Below are positions 517 to 27,365 of a stretch of DNA of 29,634 nucleotides, piece by piece (positions within the stretch are counted from its first letter, which is position 1; every line of letters starts with the position of its first letter). The DNA is from a virus, in IMG/VR virus record IMGVR_UViG_3300044809_000048, positions 1-29,634 of that record; one strand, 5' to 3'. A model generated the notes under the pieces. It was not told the origin of the DNA. It saw nothing but the letters and a program-made list of their open reading frames with translations, and searched no databases. A program made the position numbers and the translations under genes.

Positions 517-537
517 GACTCTCCTTCTGGGTGGAAC

Positions 538-578
538 GACCCCTGCCGCCCGGGACGGAGAACCAGGCGGCAGGGGTC
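538..578 (-). terminator. Hairpin after the major capsid gene
   Basis: Perfect 13-bp inverted repeat, GACCCCTGCCGCC at 538-550 and its complement at 566-578, with a 15-nt loop. It lies between the capsid stop (590) and the next start (516). There is no T-tract, which is common for actinobacterial terminators. It probably attenuates transcription so that capsid is made in excess over downstream connector genes. Confidence 0.55.
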
Positions 579-589
579 GGTGGGGTGGG

Positions 590-1834: not shown

Positions 1835-1869
1835 TGCTCTTCCCTTTCGGCTTGGTGATGGGTGGCTGC

Positions 1870-1935
1870 GGGGCCGTGTGGCGGGCGCAAAGGGGTGGCT
1901 TGTTGCAGGCCGACGAGCCCGGGGCCGTGTGGCGG
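1870..1935. repeat. 15-bp direct repeat between capsid and protease genes
   Basis: GGGGCCGTGTGGCGG occurs at 1870-1884 and again at 1921-1935 in the 123-bp non-coding gap. The period is 51 bp. The role is unknown; it may be a duplication scar or an RNA structure in the leader of the capsid gene. Confidence 0.5.
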
Positions 1936-1957
1936 ACGGGCTGGTCGGGTGGTGCGG

Positions 1958-3801: not shown

Positions 3802-3944
3802 CTACGGCCTCCCAGCAACCAACCAACGAGAACGAGGGCGGCCCCACCGACGATGAATCCGAGCGGGGGCCAGGTCAGCGCCGCGCCGGCGGTGACACAG
3901 GCGAGGCCGACGACCTCGCAGCCGGTGGAGAAGCGGTCGCGCAC
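3798..3944 (-). CDS. Tiny single-pass membrane protein between terminase and portal
   Basis: A 48-residue ORF (GTG start, MRDRFSTGCEVVGLACVT at the N-terminus) fills the gap between the TerL stop and the portal start. It begins 11 nt after TerL, has a GGGAG Shine-Dalgarno, and its TGA overlaps the portal GTG by 4 nt. Residues from about 9 to 44 are two short hydrophobic stretches broken by a Pro-Pro turn (WPPLGFIVGG), ending in positively charged GGRR. Function is unknown. The exact fit in the operon supports a real gene despite its size. Confidence 0.6.
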   Translation of the reverse strand: MRDRFSTGCEVVGLACVTAGAALTWPPLGFIVGGAALVLVGWLLGGRR

Positions 3945-3955
3945 GGTGGCTCCCT

Positions 3956-5344
3956 TCACCAGACGGATGCGAGCAGGTCGTAGTCGGCGGTCGTGTCGAC
4001 GCCCCAGGCGGCGAGGGTCACGGCCTCAAGCGGCGAGACGTCGAACAGCGCGTACCGGCGCTTGTACAACCAGCGGTCGCCCATGTCGCGGCGGGTTGCA
4101 CCGAGGACGGCGGCGTCCAGGTCGGTTTGACCGAGGTGCCGCACCTTGCCTGCGAGCACCGCGTCGTACACGTCGGCGCAGGCACCGGCCATCTCCTTGG
4201 TGTTCGGCATCGTCAACCGGACGCCCTGCGCGTCGAGCGCGTTGATCAGGGCGGGCTTGTTGGCGGGGCCGACCGAGTCCATGACCACGCCGACCGCGCC
4301 GTGCTTGTCGCGCAGTTCCTTGACGCGCGGCGCGACCCAGTCGAGACCGCGCCGGTAGTCGATGACCTCGAGGTGGAGCAGCCCGTCAGCCGTGTGGCCG
4401 GCCACGCCGATGCACGCGTGGGTCTGGTCGATGGACACGGCGATGCCGAGGGTCAGGTGGGTCGCGATCTGGCTCGTCGCGGACAGGCACTCGTTCCAGG
4501 CCGGTCCGTACAGCCCCGCGTTGACGCCGGACGGCCAGATCGACAGGCGCTCACGTGCGAACGCCTCGTCGCTCATCGCGCCGCGTTCAAGTTGAACGAA
4601 CTCGTCGTTGATCCGGGTGTCGTACGCCGGGTTGGCGGCGCGCCACGCATCACGGTCGTCGAGGTCCGGGACGAACTCGCCGACGTTCCACTCGAACCAT
4701 GCGAGCCGGGGGTCCTCGCCTGCCCGCCCACGGTCGCGGACCTGGGTGAACACCTCGGCGTTGTTCAAGGGGCCGGGCACGGTGCCCGCGTAGACGATCT
4801 GCGCGTTGGGGCTGGCGGACATCGTCGGCACGAGGGCAGACATCTCAAGGTCGCTGAGTTCCTGCGCCTCGTCGATCAGCATCGTGTCGGCGGAGAAGCC
4901 TCGACCGGAGTTCTTGCTACGTGCGATGAACCGGAGGCGGCAGCCGTTCTTGAGTTCAATCAACTCGCCATCGGAGCCGGTGCGGACGTGCTTGACGCGC
5001 CGGGACAGGTGGGGTGTGCCCTCGACCATGCCCTTGATGCGCCGGAACGTCTCCTGCGCGGTTTTGAACTGGTGGGCTGAGTAGACGATCAGCGGCTCGT
5101 TGAACAGGAAGAGTCCGGCCAGAGCTCGTGCCTCAAACCACGCACCCTTGCCGTTCTGACGAGCGACCAGGATCCCGACCTCGGGCGAAGCCCAGCGTCC
5201 GTCCGCACGTTCGCCCAGCGCCTCGCGGAGCAGGTACGCCTGCCAGTCATCCATGTGCAGGCCGCTCGCCGCAGCGAGCGCGATCGCTTCGTCACCAGCC
5301 GACGTCACGTACGACGGCACGCGCGCGATGCGCGGCTCAAGCAC
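3956..5344 (-). CDS. Phage terminase large subunit
   Basis: A 462-residue DNA-packaging motor. The N-terminal ATPase has the terminase-type Walker A ARQNGKGA (61-68), the adenine-motif stretch YSAHQFKTAQETFRRI and Walker B MLIDEAQ (155-161, with catalytic Glu). The C-terminal RNase-H-like nuclease has Asp in SIDQTH (306) and in VVMDS (356). It cuts concatemers and drives DNA into the prohead through the portal. The GTG start lies inside the end of the small-subunit gene (8-nt overlap). All key residues are present. Confidence 0.95.
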   Translation of the reverse strand: MLEPRIARVPSYVTSAGDEAIALAAASGLHMDDWQAYLLREALGERADGRWASPEVGILVARQNGKGAWFEARALAGLFLFNEPLIVYSAHQFKTAQETFRRIKGMVEGTPHLSRRVKHVRTGSDGELIELKNGCRLRFIARSKNSGRGFSADTMLIDEAQELSDLEMSALVPTMSASPNAQIVYAGTVPGPLNNAEVFTQVRDRGRAGEDPRLAWFEWNVGEFVPDLDDRDAWRAANPAYDTRINDEFVQLERGAMSDEAFARERLSIWPSGVNAGLYGPAWNECLSATSQIATHLTLGIAVSIDQTHACIGVAGHTADGLLHLEVIDYRRGLDWVAPRVKELRDKHGAVGVVMDSVGPANKPALINALDAQGVRLTMPNTKEMAGACADVYDAVLAGKVRHLGQTDLDAAVLGATRRDMGDRWLYKRRYALFDVSPLEAVTLAAWGVDTTADYDLLASVW

Positions 5345-7529: not shown

Positions 7530-7633
7530 AAAAGCGGGCACCGGGCACCGAGCCATTAAGGAAGAAAACCGGTGCCCGCTTTTCTTCCAAAGCGGGCCAT
7601 TGCCCCGGTGCCCGCTTTAGGTGCCCGCTTTGG
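7530..7633. repeat. Cluster of five GTGCCCGCTTT repeats at the 3' end of rep
   Basis: Copies are seen at 7530-7542 (inverted), 7571-7583, 7589-7598 (inverted, partial), 7608-7618 and 7620-7632. The first two form a perfect 13-bp inverted repeat. The cluster covers the last codons of the primase-polymerase gene and the gap after it. Repeats of this kind, at the end of rep, are candidate replication-origin iterons; coding repetition (KAGTG twice) is the alternative explanation. Confidence 0.6.
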
Positions 7634-9697
7634 ATTCAGTGCCCACTCCCTCTGCTGGCCGGACGTCCACGAGACCGCGTTGTCGACCACGGACGGTGTC
7701 TCACCGTCCGTGAGCGCCTTCATGATCGGCGTGACGTACTTCTTGTGGGTGTGCACGTCGGACTGCCCGCCCTCGTCGGCAGACCTCGTGGACCGAGCCT
7801 CCAGGGCCGTGCGCAGCTCGGCGTCCGACCACCCGCTCGTGGGGTTCTTCTCCCGGAGCATCTTGGGTGACTCACCGGTCAGGATTTCCAGGATCGCAGC
7901 CCTGGTACGACGCTCCTTGGCGATCGACTCGTCGGCCTCCTGTGCTGCCTCGGTGGCCGCCAACTCGGACAGGCCCGGCGCGCCGGGGTACCAAACGACA
8001 GGGCCCCGGTCGATCTGGAACCGGAACGGCGCAGGCTTCACGGCACCCTTCACCTTCTGCCACGACACCATCGACGTGTCCTTGTCGGCATACACGAGCA
8101 CGTCCGCCTTGCCACGGACCGACGTCGACCCGCGACCCCGCTTCTCGCCGTACGGCGGGTGGTGGAGGAGCAGGCCGAACGCGCCGCGCGCCACGAGCCA
8201 CCTGCGCACCTTCGCAAGCATCTGGCCCATCTCCGGCTTCATCTCGTCCGTCGCGCCGGTCACGTCGATCTGCGTGTCGAACACGACCAGCACCGGCTCG
8301 ATGCCCTCGATGTCGATGTCCCGCTCCAGCCAGGCGACCGTCTTGTCGTCGGTGAAGTTCAGCTCCTCCTCGTCCAACAGGTAGAGGTTGTCGCCGTTGC
8401 AGCCTGCATGCGCACCCAGCCACGAGTTGATATAGGACTCGATGACCGGGCCGCCCTCCATCGCGACGTACACGACCGGGCCGGGCCGGCGGATCCTGTA
8501 GCCCGCCCACTCCGGGAGCCCGTTCGCGATGGACAGAGCCAGGTCGATGCTGATGATCGACTTGCCGGTGTCCTCCGGGGCCGCGAGCTGTCCGAGCCCC
8601 TTCTCGTGGAGGACGCCCTCGACCAGCCACGGGATCGTCGTGTTGCGGACCAGACCGTCGCCCTTGCGGAGCCGCGACGTATGCGGGGTCTCCACGGGCT
8701 CAGGCTGCGGTGGCTCGTCGGTCACAGCGTGCTCCCTGGCCCACTCGTTCAACTGCTCGTTGTGACAGATGCACGGCGGCTGCTGGTCGTCGCGACCGAC
8801 TAGGGCCTGAGCACCCTCGACGATGCGCTGCCACTCGCCGTCGACCGACCGTTCATCGGTGTCGTCTGCCCCTCGCCTGCTGAACAACTGGTGCCGCAGG
8901 ATCCGAAGCGCGTCACCGTGCCCGCTGTGCCCGTTACGAGCTGCTCGGTAGACCTGAGCCACCGCGTCGCGGATCGTGTCATGGCGGCTCGTGCCCCTGT
9001 TCATCGCCTCGATGGCCGACGTCACGGCCTGCTGGACGACGCCACACACCGCGTCTGTGGAGGGAGGAAGTGGACCCATCTCGACCTTGTCTGGCCGCAG
9101 CCCGGCCAGGAAGTCGACCCACGGCCGCGGCAAGCTCGGGAGCGAGTCGAACATCGGCGGGATGTCGGTGATCTCCCCGGTCGACTCATCGAGCCACTGG
9201 TACGGCGCCCCGCCGGCGTCGGGGTTGCGGCTCGGTGACACGAGGGCGTATCTGTGGCAGTGCCGGATCAGCTCGATCCCGGGTGCACCGCCAATCCACT
9301 CCGACGTGTCCACGCCTTCCGGCAGCTGGTAGTGCCTGATCCCCGACACCGAGTCGCCAGTGAGTCGTGCGCTGCTGCGCCACGTCGGTGGTAGCGGTGA
9401 TCCGACCGCTGCCTCCCAGTCGGCCAGCGTCTCGGCACCTGGCTTGCCCGGGTACGCGTCGACGTCGATACCCAGGGCGTTCTCGTTGACGCGGACCGCG
9501 ATGTTGTACGGACCCTGCCCGAAGATCAGTGTCCAGTTGCTGATGTCGCGTTCGTTCACGTTCTGGCCGCGGTGCCCGGTGTAGCCCGCAGGGACCGGAT
9601 CCTTCATGCCCGGTCTGGTGATCGGCAGCGGTTGCCAGCCCTTGGCGTAGTACTCCTTGGCCGCCGTGCCGAACGGCGTGGTGGTCTCGGTCGTCAT
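7556..9697 (-). CDS. Primase-polymerase / AAA ATPase replication protein (element 1)
   Basis: A 713-residue protein; the ATG at 9697 overlaps the stop of the upstream gene (ATGA), and the in-frame extension upstream is the shadow of that gene. Residues 1-200 are a Prim-Pol (AEP) domain with catalytic Asp pair in GIDVD (78, 80) and a His in RHYQLP. Residues about 350-560 are a RepA-like RecA-fold ATPase with Walker A APEDTGKS (373-380) and Walker B VVFDTQ (471-476). The C-terminus (about 590-713) is likely winged-helix, DNA-binding. It would prime and unwind replication of the element. The final 25 residues are encoded by the GTGCCCGCTTT repeats. Confidence 0.9.
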   Translation of the reverse strand: MTTETTTPFGTAAKEYYAKGWQPLPITRPGMKDPVPAGYTGHRGQNVNERDISNWTLIFGQGPYNIAVRVNENALGIDVDAYPGKPGAETLADWEAAVGSPLPPTWRSSARLTGDSVSGIRHYQLPEGVDTSEWIGGAPGIELIRHCHRYALVSPSRNPDAGGAPYQWLDESTGEITDIPPMFDSLPSLPRPWVDFLAGLRPDKVEMGPLPPSTDAVCGVVQQAVTSAIEAMNRGTSRHDTIRDAVAQVYRAARNGHSGHGDALRILRHQLFSRRGADDTDERSVDGEWQRIVEGAQALVGRDDQQPPCICHNEQLNEWAREHAVTDEPPQPEPVETPHTSRLRKGDGLVRNTTIPWLVEGVLHEKGLGQLAAPEDTGKSIISIDLALSIANGLPEWAGYRIRRPGPVVYVAMEGGPVIESYINSWLGAHAGCNGDNLYLLDEEELNFTDDKTVAWLERDIDIEGIEPVLVVFDTQIDVTGATDEMKPEMGQMLAKVRRWLVARGAFGLLLHHPPYGEKRGRGSTSVRGKADVLVYADKDTSMVSWQKVKGAVKPAPFRFQIDRGPVVWYPGAPGLSELAATEAAQEADESIAKERRTRAAILEILTGESPKMLREKNPTSGWSDAELRTALEARSTRSADEGGQSDVHTHKKYVTPIMKALTDGETPSVVDNAVSWTSGQQREWALNPKRAPKAGTGAMARFGRKAGTGFLP

Positions 9698-10137
9698 CGG
9701 GTCACGAGCCAGTGAGCCCGGGCGATCTCCGATGCGACAATCGCGCCGCTGTCGCCGAACTCGACCCACCCCGCCAGCATCGTGCCGCCGCCGTGGTATC
9801 TGCCGAGGCACGAACACACGCACTCCGCGCCCTTCGCCTGCTGGCATTTGACGTGGCAGCGCTCGGTCGTGAGGTGGTCGGTCCAGACCTCGCATTCGCC
9901 GAACCGGTCGGCTGCCGCTTGAGCGAGCAGGTGCAGGTGCCGGCGGGCAACGAGCCACCTGCCACCAGACCAGGTCGGTCGCGCCCCGAGCGTGTCCTTG
10001 AGCCACTGCCGGTTCGCAGGGCGGTACGGCGTCCAGAGCTCCAGCCGCCCCTTCAGGGGACGCCAGATCCTCGCGCGCTCGATCATGGGGTCATCATCCA
10101 GCGGACGACGACATACGACGTGGTCATCGTGCGTCAC
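9694..10137 (-). CDS. Cys-rich hypothetical protein upstream of primase-polymerase
   Basis: A 147-residue protein (ATG at 10137; an alternative ATG at 10086 would remove 17 residues). The middle has a WRPLKGRLELWTPYRPANR segment and a Cys/His cluster near 94-116 (RCHVKC, ECVCSCLG, then YHGGG) that should bind zinc. The stop overlaps the rep start by 4 nt and the start overlaps the HTH gene by 14 nt. Proteins of this kind are commonly adjacent to rep in actinobacterial integrative elements. Exact function is unknown. Confidence 0.65.
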   Translation of the reverse strand: MTHDDHVVCRRPLDDDPMIERARIWRPLKGRLELWTPYRPANRQWLKDTLGARPTWSGGRWLVARRHLHLLAQAAADRFGECEVWTDHLTTERCHVKCQQAKGAECVCSCLGRYHGGGTMLAGWVEFGDSGAIVASEIARAHWLVTR

Positions 10138-10873: not shown

Positions 10874-10967
10874 GAACGAGGCGGATGGCCGCAAGATGGC
10901 GGACCGGATCATCTCGGGCGAGTTCAAGGACGCGGAGAAAAAGATCAAGCGACCCGAGAAAAAGTAG
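10743..10967 (+). other. Displaced C-terminal segment of the WhiB-like gene (+1 frame)
   Basis: This frame reads KRRLGQLRAAHTRGYHEGK and continues with an ordinary hydrophilic tail (VPELSKVNGRIVATDGG, then DAEKKIKRPEKK and stop). It has no good start of its own. Removing one C from the CCCCC run joins it to the WhiB-like gene as a 160-residue protein. It could be a mutation, a sequencing error or programmed frameshifting. Confidence 0.5.
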
Positions 10968-11897: not shown

Positions 11898-12185
11898 GTG
11901 ATTAGCCCACTGACCGCTATTGAGAAGATCGCGGTTCCGATCATCTCATCGCTCATTAGTGACGGTGAGTGGGATCGTCTGGAATTCGCCATCCTCCCAC
12001 TCGCAAGCGGCAATAGACGCGGGCTCACGCTACGACTTACGTGTGGGCCTGATCTATTCGAATTCTTCGTCATAGACCCGCAAGCCGACATTGAAGAGAC
12101 CGAAGCGCGTCTTAGCGCGCGGCTAAGGTCGGACCTGCAGGATTTTGTATCGCAGAGCAGCTTTGGCTGGGGAGAACAACGCTGA
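11898..12185 (+). CDS. Small cytoplasmic hypothetical protein, partner of the secreted protein
   Basis: A 95-residue protein with GTG start and AAGGG upstream, 11 nt after the secreted-protein stop, so in the same operon. It has no signal peptide; it is acidic with alternating strands and helices (WDRLEFAILPLA, LTLRLTCGPDLFEFFVID, then an acidic helix IEETEARLSARLRSDL). No family is recognised. A small acidic cytoplasmic partner of a secreted protein is the pattern of an immunity protein, but that is inference from layout alone. Confidence 0.65.
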   Translation: MISPLTAIEKIAVPIISSLISDGEWDRLEFAILPLASGNRRGLTLRLTCGPDLFEFFVIDPQADIEETEARLSARLRSDLQDFVSQSSFGWGEQR

Positions 12186-12236
12186 CTGCTGCGCGATCAG
12201 TGCCCTCTGTGTCGTGTTTCTTCTGAAACATCTACG

Positions 12237-12545
12237 TTCGTCGATGCCATGCTCCCCGAGGGCCACCGCCTCCACGTCGTCCTCGAGGGCATCAGCCGTG
12301 GCTGGTCCGCGGTCAACATCCGCAAGTTCGTGCTCACCGCGGCCCGTCTGCACGACCTGGTCGAGCTGCGGACGTTGACGCCGGCGGCGGCCGCCTTCCT
12401 CGAGGCATCGGTCCGGGCCGGCCTCAACATCCTGGTGGCCGGCGCGACCCAGGCGGGCAAGACCACCCTGCTCAACTGCCTGGCTGCCGCGATCCCGGGC
12501 GGCGACCGGGTGATCAGCGCGGAGGAGGTGTTCGAGCTGCGCTTC
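12237..12545 (+). pseudogene. Fragment of a CpaF/TadA-type secretion ATPase
   Basis: About 103 codons of a pilus/type II-IV secretion ATPase survive: FVDAMLPEGHRLHVVLEGIS, then NIRKFVL, the Walker A GATQAGKTTLLN, and RVISAEEVFELRFAHP. In an intact protein of about 400 residues this corresponds to the segment around the P-loop; the N-terminal domain and everything after the Asp/His boxes are missing. The frame then runs into unrelated Arg-rich sequence. Neither end has normal gene context, so this is a relic, probably left by insertion or recombination at this spot. Confidence 0.85.
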
Positions 12546-12570
12546 GCGCATCCGAAACTTCTTGGGGGCA

Positions 12571-12687
12571 ATGCAGTTCACCGAAACGCAGCCCGAACGC
12601 GCCTTCCAGTTGATGCTCGAAACGCTCGGCGACCCTCACGCGCCGTGGCGGGCTGAACGAATTGAGCCAATGGAGGGGCCACGCTAG
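12571..12687 (+). other. 38-residue ORF after the CpaF relic, possible gene remnant
   Basis: It reads MQFTETQPERAFQLMLETLG and ends in IEPMEGPR. Composition looks protein-like, but there is no ribosome site and it begins where the CpaF similarity ends. The TAG overlaps the convergent stop of the next gene (12684-12686). It could be the C-terminal stub of another chromosomal gene. Confidence 0.25.
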
Positions 12688-14449: not shown

Positions 14450-15016
14450 ATGCGCGAGGAGTTTGCCAAGCAGTGGGCAGACTTGCACGCCAAGGGCGAG
14501 GCCGAACACGAACGACTCAGGTCGCGGTTGGGCGACCTGAGCGAGGCGCACGACGCTGCCCAAGAGCAGCGCATGGCTGAGTGGCAGCAACTTCGCGACG
14601 AGACGGACGCGCTTGTTCGAGAGAACGAGCGTGCCGAGGATGATGCGGCAGAGCGGGACGCTCATGAGGAACCCGAGCGCCGACTCGGCTCTGGGGTCGT
14701 CGCACAGGTGAAGATGGAAGGCGTCAAGACGACTCGCCACATGGTTCAAGCCCTCTACGGCGTCGCCTCGTTGGAGGACAAGAGACCTGTCTTCTTTTCG
14801 CTTGCTGGCTACACCCGACAAGCCATCGACTGGGCTGAGTCAGCGGGTGTTGCATGCTTTGAGTTCACGTTCGACGGCGGTGTCGAGGCCAGGACGGGTC
14901 ATGCGCGAGACCTGCGGCCAACGAACCCGCTACGCACCATCGATGATGTCGAGGGGTGGCAGGCTGTCGACGACCCTGTTCGTCTCGACCGAGACGGTCA
15001 CGATCCGGGCGAGTAG
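14450..15016 (+). CDS. Mrr-like nuclease-fold protein with coiled-coil N-terminus
   Basis: A 188-residue protein. Residues 1-75 are almost all charged (Glu/Arg/Ala) and should form a long helix or coiled coil. From 80 on, VVAQVKMEGVKTTRHMVQALYG then PVFFSLAGYTRQAIDWAESAGVACFEF matches the C-terminal half of Mrr-type endonuclease domains, with QVK (86-88) as the QxK motif. The Gly-x-Asp strand that normally precedes it is not recognisable, so it may be inactive or regulatory. Its last 87 bp overlap, antisense, the 3' end of the Type ISP gene. No clear ribosome site precedes the ATG. Confidence 0.6.
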   Translation: MREEFAKQWADLHAKGEAEHERLRSRLGDLSEAHDAAQEQRMAEWQQLRDETDALVRENERAEDDAAERDAHEEPERRLGSGVVAQVKMEGVKTTRHMVQALYGVASLEDKRPVFFSLAGYTRQAIDWAESAGVACFEFTFDGGVEARTGHARDLRPTNPLRTIDDVEGWQAVDDPVRLDRDGHDPGE

Positions 15017-18000
15017 GTCAAGGATGTAGCGCGGGTCGCCGACTTCGCGCGACCAGTCGTTCGGGTCGTTGACGATGCCGGACGCCTTGTCGGTCTTCAC
15101 GTAGTAGCGGTCGATGATCCACTCGATTGCTGACCGCGAGCCGAGCATGTAGCGGTAGGCGTCCTCAGGGATGCCGCCCAGCGTGATCCGGTCGTTGTAG
15201 TGGATCACCGAACGGTCGTACCGCTCGCCCTCGACCTTCCGTTCTGCAGACGCCTTTCCGAACGCCATCTTCCTGTCGCCCACAGCGAAGAACGAGTACG
15301 GATCCCCCAGCGACTCCACGCCCAGTCCGTCGAGCGGATAGAGCGGCGCGGACTCGTAGTTCAGGTGCAGGTCGGAGAGCGCCCGGCCCGCCTCGGCGAA
15401 CCCCCTGTAGTCGCGGACCATCGGGATGCGCGGAAGCATCTTCTTGAGGTCGGCGCCGTAGGTCTCGCGATAGGTCGGTGAGTGAAGCAATCCGTAGACG
15501 TAGAAGAAGATGTCGTCCTTGGTGATCGTCTCGCTGGGGTATGCGGCCTGAAACCACTTGAGCCCCTCGTCGGTGATGTTGTCGATCTTGCGGTAGCCGT
15601 CGATCGCCTCACCGCCGAGGTCAAGATTGAGAGTCTCAGCCGCATCGACAGGCTCGTAACGCCAGCGGGAGAACACCGAACATGTGTGGAGTGTGTGGTA
15701 GCTGGGAAGGACGTCCACCATCAGCGTTGATGGTCCGTCGGATGATCCCGGCCCGACGCACAGCACCGATGGATTGCGTGTTTCGGCCGTGGGAAACAGG
15801 CGGGGAAGTCGATAGACGCGTGCGATCAGCTGGCGGTCGAAGTAGATGTGGGCACGTTGGAAGGGTCGGTAGTGAATCTGGGTGAGGAAGTCTGCATCGA
15901 AGCCTGACGGAGCATCCACCTCCTCAACCAGCAACTGAACGTTGGTCCTTAGCGCATCGGCGCCGTAGTTGACGAGCCACGCGTCGCGCGCTGTCAGCGT
16001 GCCAAGGGAGGACAGCCCGAAGATGCCGGGCTCAGTCACTCCCTGCTTCCCAACCACTGGGATGAATGCACCGAAGTCTTCTCGGCGCTGGTTCAACCAG
16101 TCTCCGTGCTCGTTGGACGTGATTGTGCGTGAGGGAAGTTCAAGCATGCTCTTGGCAGCGACTACTTGGGCGAGTTTCTCCTCGCGGCTGAGGTAGTCAC
16201 CAACGTCGGTGTGGTGGATAGTCGCGGGTCCCCCTTTCGCCGGGTTCTTCACCAGCAGGGTGATTGCGACCGTCGCGCGACTTCCGCCACCGAAGACCTT
16301 GCCGCCCTCCCTACGGGACTGCTCCCCGGCTGTCCGCTGGTTGCCGCGCAAGTTATACACGTAGATGGCGGAGAACTCGTCGGCGAGTGTCTTGCGCATC
16401 CCGTCGGCACTGTTTGAGTCGAGGAATCCGCCGTTTGTCACGTACCCGACGATTCCCCGGTCCTCGATCCGGAGCGAAGCCCACTTGATCGCACGAATGT
16501 AGGAGTCATAGAGGTTCCTAACCAGAGCTGCGTTGGATCTCGCCGCGTAGGAGGCGCGGATCTCAGAATCCAAGCCGGGGTACGACTCGTTCTGGTTGTC
16601 ATCGCGCGCCGACTCCTGACCAACGGACCAAGGCGGGTTGCCAACGATCACCGTGATGGGCAACTTCTTGAGGGCTACGAGGCGCGCGTTGTTCTCGGGG
16701 AACACCTCTAGATCCGGGCGGTCATCGGGTTCCCACGACTGGAACGTGTCGGTGAGGATCAGGCCGGGGAACGCCTCGGACTTGCCGGTCAGATCGGCGT
16801 AGGTCGTCTCGATGTTGACGGCCGCAATGTAGTACGCGAGCAGCAGAATCTCGTTGGCGTGCAACTCGTGGGCGTACTTGCGGGCGAGGTCGTGGGGCTC
16901 GATGAGGCCCGACTGCAGCAGGCGCACCATGAACGTGCCGGTGCCGGTGAAGCCGTCGAGGATGTGGACTCCCTCGTCGGTGAGCCCTTGGCCGAACTCG
17001 GTGCGGAGAACGTCGTCGGCTGACTTCAGGATGAAGTCGACAATCTCGACCGGCGTGTAGACGATGCCCAGTTTGTCGACGGTCTTCTTGAAGGCGCTGA
17101 CAAAGAACTTGTCGTACAACTCGATGAGGATGCGCTGCTTGCCAACGGCGTTGTTGACCCCTTCCACCCGCCGCCGGACTGAGGCGTAGAAGTCTTCCAG
17201 CGTGGCGTTCTCGGAGGCGAGATTGTGCTCGTCCAGAGAGGCCAGCATGAGTTCCATCGTCTGTGCGACGGGGTTGTTGGCACCGAAGTTGCGGCCCTCG
17301 AAGAGTGCCTCGAAGATCGGACGAGTGACGAGGTGCTGGGCGAGCATCTCGATCGCCTCATCGGGGGTGATGTTGTCGTTGAGATTGCCCCGCAGGCCGT
17401 CGAGGAACACCTCGAACTCCTTGGCAGGATTCGAGTCCTCATCGGCTAGTAGTCCGTTGATGCGGATGATGTGCGCTCGGGCGATGTCAGATACGTCCTT
17501 TGCCCACGTCTCCCAGTAGCGGCGCTCGCCGACCTTCTGGACGATGCGGGCGTACATGGCATCGCGGAAGCCGTCGAAGCCGTAGCTGAGAGCGAGTTGC
17601 TCGGTCTCTGCACGCTGGGCCGTGTCGTCGGAGGGGCTCTCCTCCTCGGGTGAGACAACCTCGGGGCGCGGGGTCACATTGTCGATCACCAAGCGGTCGG
17701 TCTTGCGCTTGTTGAGTTCGATCTGATTGACCATCGCGTGGAAGCGGTCGTCGTGGGACCGGAGTGCTTGCAACACCTGCCAGACCACGCGGTAGCGGTC
17801 GTTGTCCTTGAGTGCCTCTTCGGGCGCGATCCCGGTCGGAATGACGATCGGCAGGATGATGTAGCCGAGTTCCTTGCCCGGTGCCCTACGCATCACCCGG
17901 CCAACCGACTGCACCACATCCACCTGCGAGCCGCGCGGGGTCAGGAACATCACTGCGTCGAGCGCAGGCACGTCCACGCCTTCGGAAAGGCAACGGGCGT

Positions 18001-19642
18001 TGCTGAGAATGCGACACACGTCTTCCGGCGTGGACTCCTTGAGCCACGCGAGGTGCGTGTTGCGCTCGTGAATCCCCATCGTGCCGTCCACGTGTGCGGC
18101 CTCGACACGGAGCAGGTGGCGAGGCGTGTCTTCGGCTTCGTCCTGCATGGCCCGGTCCACGAGCACCGGGAAGGATGCAGCGGCGGTTTTGGACGCCTTG
18201 ATGTCCTTGGCGAACGCAACAGCAGTCTTCATCGGCTTGAGGTTGCCGCTCTCTGCCTCCTGTTCGGCCGAGCCATAGTGCTTGGCGAGCCCGTTCCAGC
18301 AGCCGATCAACTTAGCCGCGTCGCCCAGCGCAATCTCCCCGCCAGTCGCCATTGCGCTCTGGAAGTTTGCGGCCACATACTCCTCGTCGACTGCGAGCAC
18401 GAGCACCTTGTAGTCGGTGAGCAGGTCAGCCTCGACCGCATCCCCGAACCCAAGCCGGTGGAACTCTTGGCCGTACCAGTCCTCGTTGTCCATCGACACC
18501 GGCTTCGCCTCTGCGTCCGCAGCCCTGCGTTTCACGTCGTCGCTGAACACGCGCGGGGTGGCGGTCATGTAGAGCCGCCTGTGTGAGCGCAGGTAGTCGC
18601 TGTCATGGACCCGGACGAATGACGACTCTTCTGCGCCAGCGAGAGTGACGCCGGTCGTACGGTGGGCCTCGTCGCAGATCACGAGGTCGAACCCGTCGAG
18701 GCCGAGTCCCTGAGCCTGATGGATGACGTCTATGGACTGGTACGTCGAGAACACGACCGTCATTCGGTCCTTGGAGTGCCTCCCGACACTCATCCGCGCG
18801 ACCAACGTCGCCGCGTCGGTCGTCGCGGGCTCGGTGAGGTCGATCGTGGGCATGTCTGCCTCGTCACTGATGACCTTGCGGCCGACCCGCACGTCGGAGC
18901 AGACCGCGAATGGGCGGATGTCGACCTCGGTGTTCGCCATCCACTCACGCAAACTTTGTGACATCAACTGGATGGACGGGACGAGAAACAGCACTGACCC
19001 GCCCGCCCCGACAAGCTCCTCGGCGATCTTGAGGGAGGTGAAGGTCTTGCCGGTTCCGCACGCCATGATGAGTTTGCCGCGATCGTGCGACCTGAACCCG
19101 TCGAACACGTCCAGAAGCGCGGCCTCCTGATGCGGGCGCAGGGTCTTCTTACCCGTCGAGACGAGCACCTCCGGCGTGGCCCACGAATACTGCGTCCAGT
19201 CGAAGGCGGACTCGTCCAGCCAAGCGATGTCGACACGTTGCACCGGCACCGCCTGATGCATGAGGGTGTCTGTCGCGTTCTGCGACCATGACTTCGCCGT
19301 GTCAAAGATGTAGCGGCGGCTGAACTCCCTGCCGCCGGAGGCGGACAGGAACGAGTCGATGTCCCCCTTGGAGACTGTCGCACCCGGCACGTAGAACTTG
19401 CACTGGATCGCGGCGTAGGAGTCCTCGTCGCGGAGGGCGGCTACAAGGTCGATCCCCGTGTCCGGGCGTCCCTCACGGCCCGGCCACTCCGACCACATCC
19501 AGACGTTGGAGAATCGCGCGCTCCACTCAGGGTCGTTGAGCAGGTAGGTCTTGATGAGTCGCTCGAACTTGTCGCCCTTGTCCCTCTCGTCCAGCGCGTT
19601 TGCTCGAAGGTCACCGAGCACTTCATAGATCGTCGCCGTCAC
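14930..19642 (-). CDS. Type ISP restriction-modification enzyme (single polypeptide)
   Basis: A 1570-residue single chain, the size of LlaGI/LlaBIII-type enzymes. The domains in order are an Mrr-like nuclease (Asp 65 in GIDLV, then QCK at 80-82); an SF2 translocase with Walker A ACGTGKT (194-200), DEAH (324-327), MTATPR (359-364) and GRVMRR (581-586); a helical coupler; an N6-adenine methyltransferase with motif I DGFTGTGTF (896-904) and motif IV NPPW (1002-1005); and a C-terminal target-recognition region. It methylates one strand of an asymmetric site and translocates on unmodified DNA until collision and cleavage. All catalytic motifs are intact. The start is GTG at 19642 with a weak ribosome site. 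Confidence 0.93.
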   Translation of the reverse strand: MTATIYEVLGDLRANALDERDKGDKFERLIKTYLLNDPEWSARFSNVWMWSEWPGREGRPDTGIDLVAALRDEDSYAAIQCKFYVPGATVSKGDIDSFLSASGGREFSRRYIFDTAKSWSQNATDTLMHQAVPVQRVDIAWLDESAFDWTQYSWATPEVLVSTGKKTLRPHQEAALLDVFDGFRSHDRGKLIMACGTGKTFTSLKIAEELVGAGGSVLFLVPSIQLMSQSLREWMANTEVDIRPFAVCSDVRVGRKVISDEADMPTIDLTEPATTDAATLVARMSVGRHSKDRMTVVFSTYQSIDVIHQAQGLGLDGFDLVICDEAHRTTGVTLAGAEESSFVRVHDSDYLRSHRRLYMTATPRVFSDDVKRRAADAEAKPVSMDNEDWYGQEFHRLGFGDAVEADLLTDYKVLVLAVDEEYVAANFQSAMATGGEIALGDAAKLIGCWNGLAKHYGSAEQEAESGNLKPMKTAVAFAKDIKASKTAAASFPVLVDRAMQDEAEDTPRHLLRVEAAHVDGTMGIHERNTHLAWLKESTPEDVCRILSNARCLSEGVDVPALDAVMFLTPRGSQVDVVQSVGRVMRRAPGKELGYIILPIVIPTGIAPEEALKDNDRYRVVWQVLQALRSHDDRFHAMVNQIELNKRKTDRLVIDNVTPRPEVVSPEEESPSDDTAQRAETEQLALSYGFDGFRDAMYARIVQKVGERRYWETWAKDVSDIARAHIIRINGLLADEDSNPAKEFEVFLDGLRGNLNDNITPDEAIEMLAQHLVTRPIFEALFEGRNFGANNPVAQTMELMLASLDEHNLASENATLEDFYASVRRRVEGVNNAVGKQRILIELYDKFFVSAFKKTVDKLGIVYTPVEIVDFILKSADDVLRTEFGQGLTDEGVHILDGFTGTGTFMVRLLQSGLIEPHDLARKYAHELHANEILLLAYYIAAVNIETTYADLTGKSEAFPGLILTDTFQSWEPDDRPDLEVFPENNARLVALKKLPITVIVGNPPWSVGQESARDDNQNESYPGLDSEIRASYAARSNAALVRNLYDSYIRAIKWASLRIEDRGIVGYVTNGGFLDSNSADGMRKTLADEFSAIYVYNLRGNQRTAGEQSRREGGKVFGGGSRATVAITLLVKNPAKGGPATIHHTDVGDYLSREEKLAQVVAAKSMLELPSRTITSNEHGDWLNQRREDFGAFIPVVGKQGVTEPGIFGLSSLGTLTARDAWLVNYGADALRTNVQLLVEEVDAPSGFDADFLTQIHYRPFQRAHIYFDRQLIARVYRLPRLFPTAETRNPSVLCVGPGSSDGPSTLMVDVLPSYHTLHTCSVFSRWRYEPVDAAETLNLDLGGEAIDGYRKIDNITDEGLKWFQAAYPSETITKDDIFFYVYGLLHSPTYRETYGADLKKMLPRIPMVRDYRGFAEAGRALSDLHLNYESAPLYPLDGLGVESLGDPYSFFAVGDRKMAFGKASAERKVEGERYDRSVIHYNDRITLGGIPEDAYRYMLGSRSAIEWIIDRYYVKTDKASGIVNDPNDWSREVGDPRYILDLLARIVTVSVETNRVVDSLPPLDIIDGA

Positions 19643-20701: not shown

Positions 20702-21117
20702 GGTCGTACTCCTCGGGCTCATTTCGGTTGGGTGATGTATCGCACCGGAATCGAGGTCACGCCGAGGGCCGTTCCATTCCCCTCTGTCGCACGGGCCAGG
20801 TGGCTTCTGCCACGTCCCGTCGAACAACTCCACGTTATCACCGGCGGGAGTGTGGGAACGGGTGACGGTACCTGAAACGGGACGTTCGCCGAGACTTGAG
20901 CCAGCGCCTAGCGGGCATCCGGCTGCACGCCTGCGGCGCGATGTCGGCGGTCCACGATAGACTCGAACACATGTTCGATCAACTGTCTTGGAGTCACCGC
21001 TCCACCCTCATCTCGCGATCGCTAGCTCCCGGTGGGTTCGTCATGGATTCCCCTGCCAGGATGCAAGGATGCGCACTGACGGGACACGATTCCAGACGTT
21101 CTAACCGGAGGCTGTGC
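20702..21117. promoter_or_regulatory. Divergent control region of the HD operon and the 167-residue gene
   Basis: 416 bp without a supported gene. The frame of the HD gene stays open through part of it, but the good Shine-Dalgarno before 21118 argues against a longer protein. It holds the LexA box at 20963-20978 with TAGACT as a possible overlapping -10. Nothing else stands out. Confidence 0.5.
20963..20978. promoter_or_regulatory. LexA (SOS) box
   Basis: TCGAACACATGTTCGA is a perfect 16-bp palindrome and an exact fit to the Gram-positive/mycobacterial LexA consensus (CGAAC-N4-GTTCG). It abuts TAGACT (20958-20963), a plausible -10 for rightward transcription, so LexA bound here would block the HD operon promoter. 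The start codon is 140 nt downstream. Confidence 0.75.
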
Positions 21118-22491
21118 ATGAGCAGCAGTGAGGTGCGCGATGCCGTCCATGGCCTCATCAGGCTGGAGCCCGAGGAGTGGAAGATTGTCGACACTCAGGC
21201 CTTCCAAAGACTTCGCGGGGTTCAACAGCTCGCGTTCACCCATCTGGTCTACCCGGGAGCGAGACACAGTCGTTTCGAGCATTGTGTCGGCGCATGCCAC
21301 CTAGCGGGCCGCCTCGCGACCGAGCTGAAGCTGGAAGACGACGTCAAGAGGAGGGTTCGGCTAGCCGCCCTATGTCACGACATCGGCCATGGTCCGTTCT
21401 CTCACGTGAGCGAGTTCGTCTTCGAAGCGCTTTCTGGTGCGGACCACATGCACGAGCGCATCTCGGCAGCCATCATTGAACACGATCCCGGCATCGGGAA
21501 AGCCCTCGCCAAGAAGGACCGCGAGTGGATTGCCGAACTCCTGACCGGCCGAGGGCACGCGAAGAAGCGCGGACTGGAGCGTGACATCATCGCTGGGCCG
21601 GCCGATATCGACAAGCTGGACTACCTCCTCCGAGACTCACATTACTGCGGGGTCGAGTATGGGCGGTACGACGTGGACAAGGTCATCGAGTCCGCCAGAA
21701 GGATTGAGCGGACAGATGGGGCGTATCTGGCTTATCACCGCGACGGAGTGTTTGCGATCGAAGGCATGCTACTGGCCCGTCATCACATGCATCGCCAGGT
21801 CTATGGCCACAAGACGCGCCTCGCGACCGACAAGATGCTCGTCCGCGCAATGCTCTTCGGGGTGGATGAGAGCCTCTTGCCGCGAACTGTGTTCGCTCCC
21901 GACGTTGACCACCTCAATGCTGCATTCGTTACCGAGTACCTCTCTTGGGACGACTCGAAGACAATGCGAAAGTTGTGCCTTGCGCCGGAGGGGTCAAAGG
22001 CTCGACAGGTCGCACAAGCACTCGTGGACCGAAAGCTGCTGAAGCGGGTTGCGACACTGGATGTGGATGATCTGAAGGACAACTTTCACTTCGACATGAT
22101 GGCGGCTGGCGAAGCAATCGAACCCAAGGCGGGTGTGCTCAAGGAGTACCAGGCCGACGCCGAGGCGATCGTTGCCGAAGCGGCAGGGGTAGACCCCATG
22201 TGGGTGGTTTTGGACTGGGAACGCCTCCAGAACCCCATCACCTCAAACGATGCCTTCAAAGTGGTGGACAAGGACGTGTTGATCACGGATGACGATCTGA
22301 TCGCTTTGGACAAGTTCACCGAACACTCAGAGATCTTCGGAAACGTGGACTCGCTCGGCGCCAGACGTCGAGTTGTCGCCTACATCCAGCCACCGGAGGG
22401 CAAGCCGTTCACCAGGCGCAAAACAACCGCGATCCGCAAGAGTATGGCAGAAGCACTGCGACCCATCAGTGAAGCCGGAAAGGAGGTCTGA
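21118..22491 (+). CDS. HD-domain phosphohydrolase (SAMHD1/YwfO-like)
   Basis: A 457-residue protein starting MSSSEVRDAVHGLIRLEPEE, with GGAGG 6 nt upstream. The metal-binding HD set is complete: His 55 in RFEH, His 87-Asp 88 in CHDIGHGPFSH, and Asp 168 in DKLDYLLRD followed by SHYCGVEYG. The opening VHGLI and FQRLRGVQQLAFTHLVYPGARHSRFEHC are hallmarks of the SAMHD1/YwfO group, many of which are dNTP triphosphohydrolases. The C-terminal third is less conserved. It forms an operon with the next gene (1-nt gap). dNTP hydrolysis is inferred, not shown. Confidence 0.88.
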   Translation: MSSSEVRDAVHGLIRLEPEEWKIVDTQAFQRLRGVQQLAFTHLVYPGARHSRFEHCVGACHLAGRLATELKLEDDVKRRVRLAALCHDIGHGPFSHVSEFVFEALSGADHMHERISAAIIEHDPGIGKALAKKDREWIAELLTGRGHAKKRGLERDIIAGPADIDKLDYLLRDSHYCGVEYGRYDVDKVIESARRIERTDGAYLAYHRDGVFAIEGMLLARHHMHRQVYGHKTRLATDKMLVRAMLFGVDESLLPRTVFAPDVDHLNAAFVTEYLSWDDSKTMRKLCLAPEGSKARQVAQALVDRKLLKRVATLDVDDLKDNFHFDMMAAGEAIEPKAGVLKEYQADAEAIVAEAAGVDPMWVVLDWERLQNPITSNDAFKVVDKDVLITDDDLIALDKFTEHSEIFGNVDSLGARRRVVAYIQPPEGKPFTRRKTTAIRKSMAEALRPISEAGKEV

Positions 22492-23769: not shown

Positions 23770-23931
23770 CTAGGGGCGCGCCCGCGACGCACCGAGTCCC
23801 AGCCCGGATCGTGGGCTGGGCTCGTCATCAAAAACGAACCGGGCGCTCAGAGCGGAGTCCCGCATCGACGCGCTCTTGAGCCCGGCCACGTGCTCGGCCT
23901 GAGCCCTCGCCTGCTTCTCTTCGTCGTTCAC
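23770..23931 (-). CDS. Small ORF coupled to the resolvase stop
   Basis: A 53-residue ORF beginning (GTG) MNDEEKQARAQAEHVAGLKS; the start overlaps the resolvase TGA as GTGA, the usual sign of translational coupling. It is followed by SARFVFDDEPSPRSG and then a Gly/Ala/Arg tail. No family is recognised. The exact coupling is the main support. Confidence 0.45.
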   Translation of the reverse strand: MNDEEKQARAQAEHVAGLKSASMRDSALSARFVFDDEPSPRSGLGLGASRARP

Positions 23932-24509
23932 GCCGCGTACGTGCCCGCGCCGGACAGTGCCGTGTAGAGGGTGGCCCGTGAACAGCCCAGCTCGCGAGCG
24001 ATGCGCGCCTTGCTCACACCAGCCTCCGCCTGCTCACGGGCGCACTCGATCTGCTCGCTCGTGAGCGCGGCCTTCCGTCCCCGGTACTTGCCCTCGGCCT
24101 TCGCCACGGCGATGCCCTCCCTCTGGCGCTCGTGGATGAGCGACCGCTCGAACTCGGCCACAGCGCCGAGCATCGACAGGAGCAGCCGCGACATGGGCTC
24201 GTCGTCGCCCGTGAAAGTGAGCGCCTCCTTGACAAACTCGACCCGGACGCCCTTGCCGGTCAGCGTCGCCACGATCCGGCGGAGGTCGTCCAAGTTGCGA
24301 GCGAGCCGGTCGAGCGAGGCGACCCTCACCGTGTCGCCCTCGCGCACATACTCGATCATTCTCTGCAACTCAGGGCGTTCGGCATTCTTGCCGCTCTGTC
24401 TATCCTCGAAGAGGCGATCGGCGCCGTTCAGAGTTTCGTGCTGACGGGCCGGGTTCTGGTCCACAGATGAGACCCTCACGTAACCGACCGTTTGTCCAAC
24501 AACTGACAT
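23928..24509 (-). CDS. Serine recombinase (resolvase/invertase, Tn3/Pin type)
   Basis: A 193-residue protein, full length for small serine recombinases. The catalytic domain starts GYVRVSSVDQNPARQ (Ser 14 as nucleophile) and has SLDRLARNLDDL (65-76) with the active-site Arg residues, followed by the dimer-forming E helix (LLLSMLGAVAEFERSLIHERQREG). A C-terminal HTH (about 147-185, ending SRATLYTAL) binds the recombination site. It probably resolves multimers of the element or inverts DNA; it is too small to be a large serine integrase. An inverted repeat at 24531-24565 just upstream could be its binding site. Confidence 0.92.
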   Translation of the reverse strand: MSVVGQTVGYVRVSSVDQNPARQHETLNGADRLFEDRQSGKNAERPELQRMIEYVREGDTVRVASLDRLARNLDDLRRIVATLTGKGVRVEFVKEALTFTGDDEPMSRLLLSMLGAVAEFERSLIHERQREGIAVAKAEGKYRGRKAALTSEQIECAREQAEAGVSKARIARELGCSRATLYTALSGAGTYAA

Positions 24510-24878
24510 CTGCCCACCTTCTTGCGTTTCTGTAGAACAACCCCAATCAGGGCTCTAGTTCTACAACGAATGGGCGTCGCTAGAAATTCCAACATGCGTG
24601 TACCCCAACTAGACGGGGAAAGCCCGGTTTCTGCAAAGCGAGCACGACGGGGTTTCGCGCGGTTTGTGGTGGCGGCAGCGTGCTGACAGCGCGGTTGGTA
24701 ATGCCCCGGCGTTTGTACCGGGTTTTGTATCACCTCCGTGAGGGAGCTAGGCCACGCCGTGGGGGCACGTGGAGCGCGGCCACGTACGAGTCCACCCTCC
24801 TCCACCGCGAGCGTGTGGAGCCCTGCCGTCGAGCAAGCCACGTGCTCGTTGCGGTGTGATTCGCCAGGACCTCCGTGG
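24510..24878. other. Non-coding stretch upstream of the resolvase
   Basis: No convincing gene is seen in this part of the 567-bp gap between the resolvase and rep. It contains the inverted repeat at 24531-24565 and several loose GGTTT/CGGTT repeats between 24610 and 24730. The long open frames here are antisense or repeat shadows. It should hold the resolvase promoter and a recombination site. Confidence 0.4.
24531..24565. repeat. Inverted repeat upstream of the resolvase gene
   Basis: TGTAGAAC at 24531-24538 and GTTCTACA at 24558-24565 are perfect complements separated by 19 nt, 22 nt before the resolvase start. Paired arms like this are typical of resolvase binding subsites or autoregulatory operators. 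Confidence 0.5.
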
Positions 24879-25070
24879 GTGGGCTGGGTGGGGTGTCTCT
24901 ATAGACACCCCCACCGCGCAGCCCACCGCCTCGGAGTAGGTCGGTGGGCTGGGTGGGCTGGGAGCGAGCAGCCCACCTGCAGCCCACCTGACAGCCCACC
25001 CGATCAAGTGGGCTGGGAAGTGGGTTGGGACCCCTCGCCAGAAGTGGGCTCAGCCCACTTGGCAGCCCAC
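24879..25070. repeat. Iteron cluster: 11 copies of AGCCCAC in both orientations
   Basis: AGCCCAC occurs at 24920, 24970, 24981, 24993, 25052 and 25064; its complement GTGGGCT starts at 24879, 24944, 24953, 25008 and 25044. Several are spaced 11-12 bp, one helical turn, and the pair at 25044-25058 is a 15-bp palindrome. A hairpin with 9-bp arms lies at 24890-24911. The cluster is non-coding and ends just 3' of the rep gene, so a replication origin is the leading idea. Confidence 0.8.
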
Positions 25071-25076
25071 CTGTTC

Positions 25077-27260
25077 TCATCGATCTTCGCCTTTCTCCCG
25101 GCGAACGCCCCGCTCGGCAATGACGCCGAGGTAGTCGCGGACCCACGTGTAGCGGATCGAGCGGTTCGGCCCCTGCTCGGCCTTGACGTAGCCGCCCTCG
25201 ACCAAATTCGTGAGCAGCCCCGGCAGGTCGCTGTTGTTCACCGAGATGGGCTCGCCGTCGATCCGCCGTTGCTTGACCTCCTCCCGCAGCGTGTTCCGAG
25301 TGAGCCACGGCTCCACGCCCGGCGAGGCTTCGGCCGCGTCGTAGCGGTCGTGCAGCACCGCCGTGGCCGCGATCTGGAACCGCTCGTTCGTGCTCCGCAC
25401 GAGAGTCGTGGCGTCCTCGACCAGCGCGAGGAACTCGGTCCGGCCGTCCGAGACGACGACCCGGAACTTGACCTCTGAGCCGGAGCCCAGCCCACGGAAC
25501 TTCGTGTTCTTGAGAGTGAACACGTCGGAGGAATCGCGCCGTTCGAGAAGCCACGAGTAGCCCACGTCGTCGCTCTTCGCGGACGCACCGCGAGCCCCGA
25601 GGCTCGTGTCCTTGCCGGTGTTGTCGGTGCGGATCACCGTTACTCCACGGCGCTTCAACTCCTCGGCGGTGAGGGTGTAGAACGCGCGGATCGTGTCGTT
25701 GGAGTTCTCCTCACCATCGGTCACCCGCTGGGTGGAGTCGAGCACCACCACATCGCCCTGACCGATCCCATAGTGGTCGAGCAGCTCGAAGAACGCGCTG
25801 GCACCGGCCTTCGTGTCGAGCCCGCCGATCGCCGGGAACGACAACGGCAGGAACGTCGAGCCCCAGAACGGCGCGACGCTCTCCATCGTCAGCCCGAACG
25901 ACAGCAGCCGCTCGCGCCAGTCGTCCTCGGAGTTCTCCTTGTCGAGGTACATCACCTTCCGTCCTTCGCCGAGCGAGACGGCCCGGCTGAGGAACTCGCC
26001 CCGGCCGCTCACCGCCGCGATGGAGAGCGCCAGCGCGAGCAGAGACTTGCCCGTGCCGCCGGGCGCGACGATCGAGACCTGATCGCCCTCGGGCACCACG
26101 CCTTCCAGCAGCCACGCCCGTGGCGGACGGTTCGGGTCGAGCAGCTCCACCCCGAGCAGCGGGAACCGCTCCTCGATCGGCCGCTCGACCTTGACCACCT
26201 TGACCGCGACCTCGACCTCGACCATCTCGGCACGGGTCCGCGCCAACGTCCGGGACTTGATCGGCACACGGTCCGCGTCCCGCAGCACCGTCACGTGCTC
26301 CTCGATCCGGTGGGTGTTGCCGAACAGCCACGAGCCCGCGTGAGCCTCTCCCTGCGTCCACGCATGGTCGGGGTCGAAGGTGCCCTCGGCCTCCGGCGCG
26401 TGCTCGGTGAACACCCGCTCGACCTCGGCCAGCGAGTCGCTGGCGTACGGCCACCGGGCGATCTCGAACAGCCGGGCGGCGAGCCGCCAGAACCCGTCGT
26501 CCCAGCCGACCGGCTGGCGGTTGACCTTGAGCCGCTTGCCCTCGGGCTGAGCCCGCAGTGCGTCCATCTTGGCCGCGATCGAGGCCACAGCCGCCTCCGC
26601 CACGGCCTCACAGCATGGTGCTGGGGCAGAGACCTTCTCGACCTCCTGCAAGGGCCTAGAAGCCCGCTCTCCGGCCCGCTCCGTCGTCGCTCCGGCGCGA
26701 GCCCGAAGCACCTCGACCAGCCAGTCGGGAGCTGGCAGGACCGGCGCGTCCGGCTCCCGGCCGAGCGTGTACCGCTCGCCGGTCGCCTTGATCGAGCCGG
26801 GGGCCACGACGTATGACCGTTCGCCCTTGATGTCGAGCCCGTCGCCGAGCACCTCGGTGCCGCTGTGGACCTCGAAGTCGGGCAGCCGAAAGTAGAAGTG
26901 CAGCCCGCCGCCGCCGGAGTTCACGACGTAGGTCTCGGGCAGGTCGCCGTGCTCGGCGACCAGAGCCGCCAACGACACGTCGCCACCGTTGCGCGGGTCC
27001 ACGTCGAGCACGAACGCGCCGGACTGTCGGCCGGTGCGGACGGCGAGGTTGCCGCCCTTCTCGGCCCACTCGCGGATCATGCCAATGTCGAACCGCTCGT
27101 GCTCCATCGGCCCTCCCTTGCCCCAACCGGCGTCGTCGCGCAGCGGCTTGAGGGACCGGCCGAGCCGGAGATAGGACAACAGCGGGTCGGGCACACACGA
27201 CGCCTTCGGTCCGGGCGCGGCGTCGTCCGGTTGAGAATGATTCTCAGATTGCGTTACCAT
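25077..27260 (-). CDS. Primase-polymerase / AAA ATPase replication protein (element 2)
   Basis: A 727-residue protein. The Prim-Pol domain (about 30-190) has catalytic FVLDVD (Asp 86, 88), the SGGGGLHFYF strand with His 121 and GLDIKGERSYVVAPGS. A linker leads to a RepA/AAA_25-like ATPase with Walker A APGGTGKS (399-406) and Walker B VVVLDSTQ (504-511). The last 100 residues resemble a winged helix (TRNTLREEVKQRR, then DLPGLLTNLVEGGYV). It would prime replication of the second element. The protein is unlike the first Rep in sequence but shares its domain order. ATG at 27260; ribosome site AAAGAGG lies in a duplicated 18-bp leader. Confidence 0.92.
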   Translation of the reverse strand: MVTQSENHSQPDDAAPGPKASCVPDPLLSYLRLGRSLKPLRDDAGWGKGGPMEHERFDIGMIREWAEKGGNLAVRTGRQSGAFVLDVDPRNGGDVSLAALVAEHGDLPETYVVNSGGGGLHFYFRLPDFEVHSGTEVLGDGLDIKGERSYVVAPGSIKATGERYTLGREPDAPVLPAPDWLVEVLRARAGATTERAGERASRPLQEVEKVSAPAPCCEAVAEAAVASIAAKMDALRAQPEGKRLKVNRQPVGWDDGFWRLAARLFEIARWPYASDSLAEVERVFTEHAPEAEGTFDPDHAWTQGEAHAGSWLFGNTHRIEEHVTVLRDADRVPIKSRTLARTRAEMVEVEVAVKVVKVERPIEERFPLLGVELLDPNRPPRAWLLEGVVPEGDQVSIVAPGGTGKSLLALALSIAAVSGRGEFLSRAVSLGEGRKVMYLDKENSEDDWRERLLSFGLTMESVAPFWGSTFLPLSFPAIGGLDTKAGASAFFELLDHYGIGQGDVVVLDSTQRVTDGEENSNDTIRAFYTLTAEELKRRGVTVIRTDNTGKDTSLGARGASAKSDDVGYSWLLERRDSSDVFTLKNTKFRGLGSGSEVKFRVVVSDGRTEFLALVEDATTLVRSTNERFQIAATAVLHDRYDAAEASPGVEPWLTRNTLREEVKQRRIDGEPISVNNSDLPGLLTNLVEGGYVKAEQGPNRSIRYTWVRDYLGVIAERGVRREKGEDR

Positions 27261-27261
27261 T

Positions 27262-27315
27262 GGGATCGAGCCTCTTTCTTGCGTCGGTTGCTGGTTTGGG
27301 GATCGAGCCTCTTTC
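27262..27315. repeat. Duplicated 18-bp leader containing a ribosome site
   Basis: GGGATCGAGCCTCTTTCT is found at 27262-27279 and 27298-27315 (36-bp period). On the minus strand each copy contains AGAAAGAGG; the nearer copy precedes the rep ATG. Confidence 0.6.
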
Positions 27316-27340
27316 TCGTGGAGGCTGACGGGTGATCGAG

Positions 27341-27365
27341 CGGTCCCAGCCGCGTGCTGGGACCG
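27341..27365 (-). terminator. Hairpin between the zinc-motif gene and rep
   Basis: CGGTCCCAG at 27341-27349 pairs with CTGGGACCG at 27357-27365 (9 bp, 7-nt loop), 10 nt after the stop of the zinc-motif gene. It probably ends or attenuates the upstream operon before rep. Confidence 0.55.

Follow-up and report, generated by a model that had tools for sequence, protein, structure and literature searches.

Eleven copies of the 7-mer AGCCCAC begin 7 bp beyond the stop codon of a gene (rep2) that encodes a Prim-Pol fused to a RepA-like helicase and, judging from sequence comparisons, we put at roughly 85% the probability that Rep2 binds this region as a replication origin. The window analysed here, 29,634 bp long, is a complete IMG/VR virus record. 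A first-pass annotation of the same DNA had read the region just 3' of the Prim-Pol gene as an origin, and was very probably right: the array is most likely a site at which copying starts, because this layout, built on other repeats, is found again in numerous phages and related mobile elements. The features of the region are:

24879-25070, both orientations: iteron array and proposed origin, with 11 exact AGCCCAC copies and one-mismatch copies at 24888 and 25020
24890-24911: hairpin GGGGTGTCT-CTAT-AGACACCCC, 22 nt, with 9-bp arms and TA in the loop
25042-25060: inverted iteron pair AAGTGGGC-TCA-GCCCACTT, which includes a 15-bp palindrome
25077-27260, minus strand: Rep2, 727 aa, comprising a Prim-Pol domain (residues 55-180), an AAA_25 RecA-fold helicase (367-552) and a C-terminal region
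25080-25418, minus strand: C-terminal region of Rep2 (about residues 615-727), proposed as the iteron-binding domain from family-level co-variation; its models are of low confidence

The array lies entirely outside rep2. Its exact copies start at 24920, 24970, 24981, 24993, 25052 and 25064 on the plus strand and at 24879, 24944, 24953, 25008 and 25044 on the minus strand, matching the six direct and five inverted copies counted at first pass, and same-strand neighbours include steps of 9-12 bp, in line with the earlier remark on several steps of 11-12 bp. Across the window AGCCCAC occurs 18 times, against 4.7 expected, and the array is the strongest local cluster of any 7-mer within the record. 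No 7-mer exceeded 5 copies per 200 bp in 200 dinucleotide shuffles of the window, or 4 copies in 2000 shuffles of the local 277 bp, which bears out the claim that chance does not explain the repeats. The consensus is CAGCCCACY, with C at -1 in 10 of the 11 copies and C (8) or T (3) at +7; this much of the suggested GCAGCCCACYT held, while its leading G is present in just 4 of 11. GC content runs from 62 to 74%, there is no AT-rich block anywhere in 24879-25070, and a search of the array for terminator-like sites found none.

Both secondary structures that had been described exist, at other places than stated. The 15-bp palindrome GTGGGCTCAGCCCAC occupies 25044-25058, at the rep-proximal end of the array rather than its centre, and the hairpin, rather than standing beside it, lies some 130 bp off, at the opposite end of the array. 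Folded as DNA, this hairpin reaches -14.1 kcal/mol (z -4.4), and it is bracketed by two inverted iterons, 24879(-) and 24920(+), that stand 41 bp apart.

In the case of the Rep2 protein, an AlphaFold model built on a 12-sequence alignment was confident mainly over the helicase part. When residues 370-615 alone were compared with folds in the PDB, the top match was RSF1010 RepA (1OLO; also 1G8Y), with a Z score of 20.9 over 231 residues and an rmsd of 4.0; since DnaB and KaiC score close behind, the fold class is firm and the ranking of families is not. RSF1010 RepA is also the sole PDB sequence match (phmmer E 5.8e-4). The C-terminal region had no match in Pfam and, modelled alone, gave a pLDDT of 44, its order of helices and strands being a hint of a winged helix and not evidence for one. 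A single-protein search of IMG/VR found no close relatives of Rep2, and comparison with plasmids and phages returned domain-level matches only. The stretch that separates the rep2 start codon from the next gene upstream contains an 18-bp repeat, GGGATCGAGCCTCTTTCT, in two identical copies (27262-27327), a possible rep2 operator. A tRNA-Glu called by ARAGORN at 27284-27354, which had suggested an attachment site, was dropped as a likely false call, as Rfam recorded no tRNA there at its gathering threshold.

The record carries a second gene of this kind, together with its own repeats:

7556-9700, minus strand: Rep1, a second Prim-Pol + AAA_25 gene, with ATG at 9700 as its probable start in a frame open to 10006
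7531-7636, both orientations: second iteron cluster, AAGCGGGCACC / GGTGCCCGCTT, proposed as the Rep1 origin and overlapping the 3' end of Rep1

Rep1 is distantly related to Rep2 (about 19% identity over the alignment), and the AAGCGGGCACC repeat at its 3' end, present in four to five copies in both orientations, is unlike AGCCCAC. Elsewhere in the record, an HK97-type head module (terminase large subunit, portal, protease and major capsid; 286-5344, minus strand) has an HNH gene and Rep1 upstream of it, an arrangement reminiscent of a satellite that forms capsids or of part of a prophage. A degenerate fragment of a CpaF/TadA (T2SSE) gene lies between the Rep1 and Rep2 regions (12021-12656, plus strand) and hints either that the record spans two elements or that an insertion site was rearranged. 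In three actinobacterial genomes, Prim-Pol/AAA_25 rep elements (L105, L106 and L107) lie near tad/flp pilus-type genes, possibly a shared integration locus; those of L105 and L107 also have a serine integrase and an HK97 capsid gene. A Type ISP restriction-modification enzyme, a single polypeptide of 1570 aa (14930-19642, minus strand), is encoded beside an HD-domain gene (20896-22491, plus strand) and shares 75% DNA identity, over part of its length, with a counterpart carried by a Dermacoccus plasmid. An inverted repeat, TGTAGAAC / GTTCTACA (24532-24565), lies upstream of the gene for the serine resolvase and may be a res or operator site.

The layout at the rep2 3' end was then set against that of other AAA_25 genes, found in genomes and in IMG/VR by searching with both individual proteins and alignments; 59 proteins with enough downstream sequence were left after removal at >70% identity. 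A gene was scored as iteron-positive when at least 5 copies of one 7-mer fell within 250 bp around its 3' end. This was true of 35/59 AAA_25 reps (59%) compared with 14/397 ends of other long ORFs in the same loci (3.5%; p 2e-25), the enrichment was similarly strong with k = 6 and 8, and matched background blocks gave 59% versus 2.6%. As 24 of the 59 reps have no iterons by the 7-mer measure, not every member of the family has the layout. The Prim-Pol genes of Gordonia phages Sapo and Archimedes show no 3' iterons either. Arrays stand just past the stop codon in Nesterenkonia L002 (CTGACAC, 7 copies), L088 (CGGTCAC, 10), L089 (CGGGACG, 12) and L104 (CCGCCAC, 7), span it in L091 (GGGACAC, 10), and fall within the last 400 bp of the gene in the DnaB_N-type group, as they do for gp21 of the cultured Streptomyces phage mu1/6 (CCTGCCC, 10). 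The N-terminal part of these proteins varies (Prim-Pol, Toprim, DnaB_N or none recognised), and so does the iteron sequence from lineage to lineage. Thus, of the conservation in related elements for which the first-pass annotation had called, the layout is found and the word AGCCCAC, private to this element, is not.

Iteron sequence appears to follow the C-terminus of Rep rather than the helicase. Using 32 iteron-positive reps, we compared the region between helicase and array, leaving out any coding sequence that overlaps iterons. C-terminal similarity predicted iteron similarity with the helicase controlled (partial rank correlation 0.33, permutation p 5e-4), a result that depends in part on a small number of groups of related Streptomyces reps, the top pairs often being close relatives; helicase similarity with the C-terminus controlled gave 0.10 (p 0.12) in the same 32 reps. 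Some C-termini of the relatives match helix-turn-helix or winged-helix families, for example HTH_IclR in L217 (7e-5). Taken together, the 3'-end enrichment, this co-variation and the literature on PICIs and SaPIs support an origin next to rep.

Another recurring feature within or near the arrays of the family is a perfect hairpin, short and with TA in the loop, as in L008 (AACATACCC-TTTA-GGGTATGTT), L007 (TCTCCCC-GTA-GGGGAGA) and mu1/6 (CCCTCTC-TAAA-GAGAGGG). It was found within or next to 13/35 arrays and in 38/1427 background spans, with a p of 2e-11 that is optimistic because the motif was noticed, and defined, on inspection of the first eight or so members; among loci fetched after its definition it is present in 6/21. 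In 10/36 arrays two neighbouring inverted iterons, at a distance of 20-60 bp, enclose a hairpin. Across the family, direct neighbours cluster at about 9-13 bp, and inverted neighbours are in excess at about 36-42 bp. The hairpin lies inside coding sequence in L005, L007 and mu1/6, which argues against a simple terminator. It accompanies AAA_25 proteins with DnaB_N (mu1/6, L043, L188, L190), with Toprim (L005, L008) and with no recognised primase domain (L007, L174) and, being present with and without Prim-Pol, tracks the helicase more than the primase. In L003, a Mycobacteroides AAA_25 gene with no detectable iterons has a hairpin, CGTCCCC-TTTA-GGGGACG, at +47 from its stop codon (10929-10946).

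We propose that the region forms part of a self-contained replicon, the sole dedicated protein of which would be Rep2, in which an archaeo-eukaryotic-type Prim-Pol and an RSF1010-RepA-like hexameric helicase are joined to a putative DNA-binding region at the C-terminus. By the family-level co-variation, this last region would bind AGCCCAC in both orientations, and direct iterons one helical turn apart may nucleate the helicase ring. As the array has no AT-rich block, the iteron-bracketed hairpin is the candidate opening site: lying between inverted iterons 41 bp apart, it would extrude under negative supercoiling and Rep binding as a cruciform with TA at its tip, a step to which, taken alone, we give a little less than an even chance. 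Once opened, the hairpin would provide single-stranded entry points in this GC-rich region for helicase rings on both strands, the Prim-Pol would prime the exposed strand and a host polymerase would extend it. Rep2 and its array would in this way unite functions of the RSF1010, pRN1 and PICI types in one polypeptide, acting on an origin located where its own gene ends.

Other explanations of the array have to be weighed against a Rep2-bound origin. Short words do recur in GC-rich DNA, and the 74 IMG/VR matches to a three-iteron AGCCCAC pattern are tandem sites in a single orientation that lack copies on the reverse strand in their vicinity, and none could be recognised as a closely related replicon; yet a chance or coding-driven repeat is a negligible prospect for an array whose 11 copies no shuffle came near, and which occupies both strands outside the rep gene. 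The repeats might instead serve another protein of the element or host, such as a serine resolvase, a partition protein or a repressor, rather than replication initiation: a resolvase/invertase gene (23928-24509) adjoins the region, and arrays of many copies are characteristic of parS or res sites. We regard this as highly improbable, given that arrays recur beside rep in many unrelated loci whatever their other neighbours, that iteron sequence tracks the Rep C-terminus, and that resolvase sites normally consist of fewer, longer repeats. Iterons have control roles in many plasmids, and protein binding to an array downstream of rep could repress replication, so that the repeats might act mainly in copy-number control or incompatibility (handcuffing), or as an operator, with the true origin elsewhere. 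That reading is improbable for an array that stands 3' of rep and not at a promoter (no match to the sigma-70 consensus, the only promoter type sought, occurs in 24450-25120); moreover, the hairpin recurs inside arrays, and the equivalent position is the origin by functional test in PICIs (PMC6092414).

A further alternative accepts the origin and differs over the hairpin, taking it as an ssi-like priming site read by the Prim-Pol and not as a site of melting or loading. It has precedents in the RSF1010 system, with which Rep2 shares a helicase family (that of RepA) and in which ssi stem-loops (ssiA/ssiB) are exposed for the primase RepB' (PMC4234260, PMC4538821), and in pRN1, where a stem-loop that follows the prim-pol-helicase gene on its 3' side is required (PMC4234260). 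A role in priming would be unspecific to Prim-Pol, since the DnaB_N, Toprim and primase-less forms have the hairpin too, and we consider the priming-site reading less likely than not.

A wider formulation is also conceivable. AAA_25 (RepA-like) helicases may be widespread one-protein replicons of phages and satellites, with a constant helicase core, an interchangeable primase part (Prim-Pol, Toprim, DnaB_N or none), a fast-diverging C-terminus that co-evolves with iterons at its own gene's 3' end, and a TA-tipped, iteron-bracketed hairpin in place of an AT-rich melting region; gene and origin would be mobile as one cassette, and two cassettes with different iterons could share an element, as may be the case here. 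We hold this generalisation tentatively, just on the doubtful side. Such a rule, derived from sequence comparison, goes beyond the original finding, should be checked and needs an independent data set; no description of it was found in the open-access literature searched, a body that excludes most subscription journals. Were it true, one could read off the origin, in a large class of replicons from phages and satellites, directly at the helicase gene's 3' end; pairs of C-terminus and iteron would form a natural series from which rules of recognition might be derived, and the hairpin would be a testable answer to how GC-rich origins open without an AT-rich block. Phage mu1/6 offers an accessible cultured system for the 3'-iteron arrangement.

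Among known systems, PICIs have their origin immediately 3' of rep, and rep plus ori sustains replication (PMC6092414), while the SaPI Rep recognises its origin through a C-terminal domain (PMC7581432). The present element shares with them multiple short iterons directly 3' of an initiator-helicase gene and, as proposed here from co-variation, an initiator C-terminus as the recogniser. The likeness to phage satellites drawn at first pass holds for this position and not for the enzyme, in that Rep2 joins a Prim-Pol to a RecA-fold, RepA-like (AAA_25) helicase, whereas SaPI Rep is of the D5/DUF927 AAA+ type. Furthermore, two iteron sets flank an AT-rich region in PICIs, where the GC-rich array described here has its iteron-bracketed hairpin instead. 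No integrase was present among the proteins scanned in this record, which may be a fragment. In RSF1010 (IncQ), RepC binds iterons, RepA unwinds and RepB' primes at stem-loops (PMC4234260). Common to both are a RepA-type RecA-fold hexameric helicase, an AEP-type primase, iterons and short origin hairpins; here, in contrast to the separate RepA, RepB' and RepC, helicase and primase form one protein, no separate RepC-like iteron binder is seen, and the iterons lie in both orientations 3' of rep. The pRN1 protein ORF904 likewise fuses a Prim-Pol to a helicase and has an essential stem-loop origin just 3' of its gene (PMC4234260), but its helicase is of SF3 type and its single stem-loop measures about 100 nt, compared with a RecA-fold helicase and a 22-nt hairpin amid many iterons. 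The same domain order of primase, RepA-like helicase and C-terminal domain is known from PrimQH / all3500, for which a C-terminal winged helix following the AEP and RepA-type helicase was proposed to recognise the origin (PMC5862659); iterons did not turn up in a term search of that publication. On the features tested, the element is a member of neither the PICIs nor the RSF1010 group: the 3' position of its array is PICI/SaPI-like and its parts are RSF1010-like.
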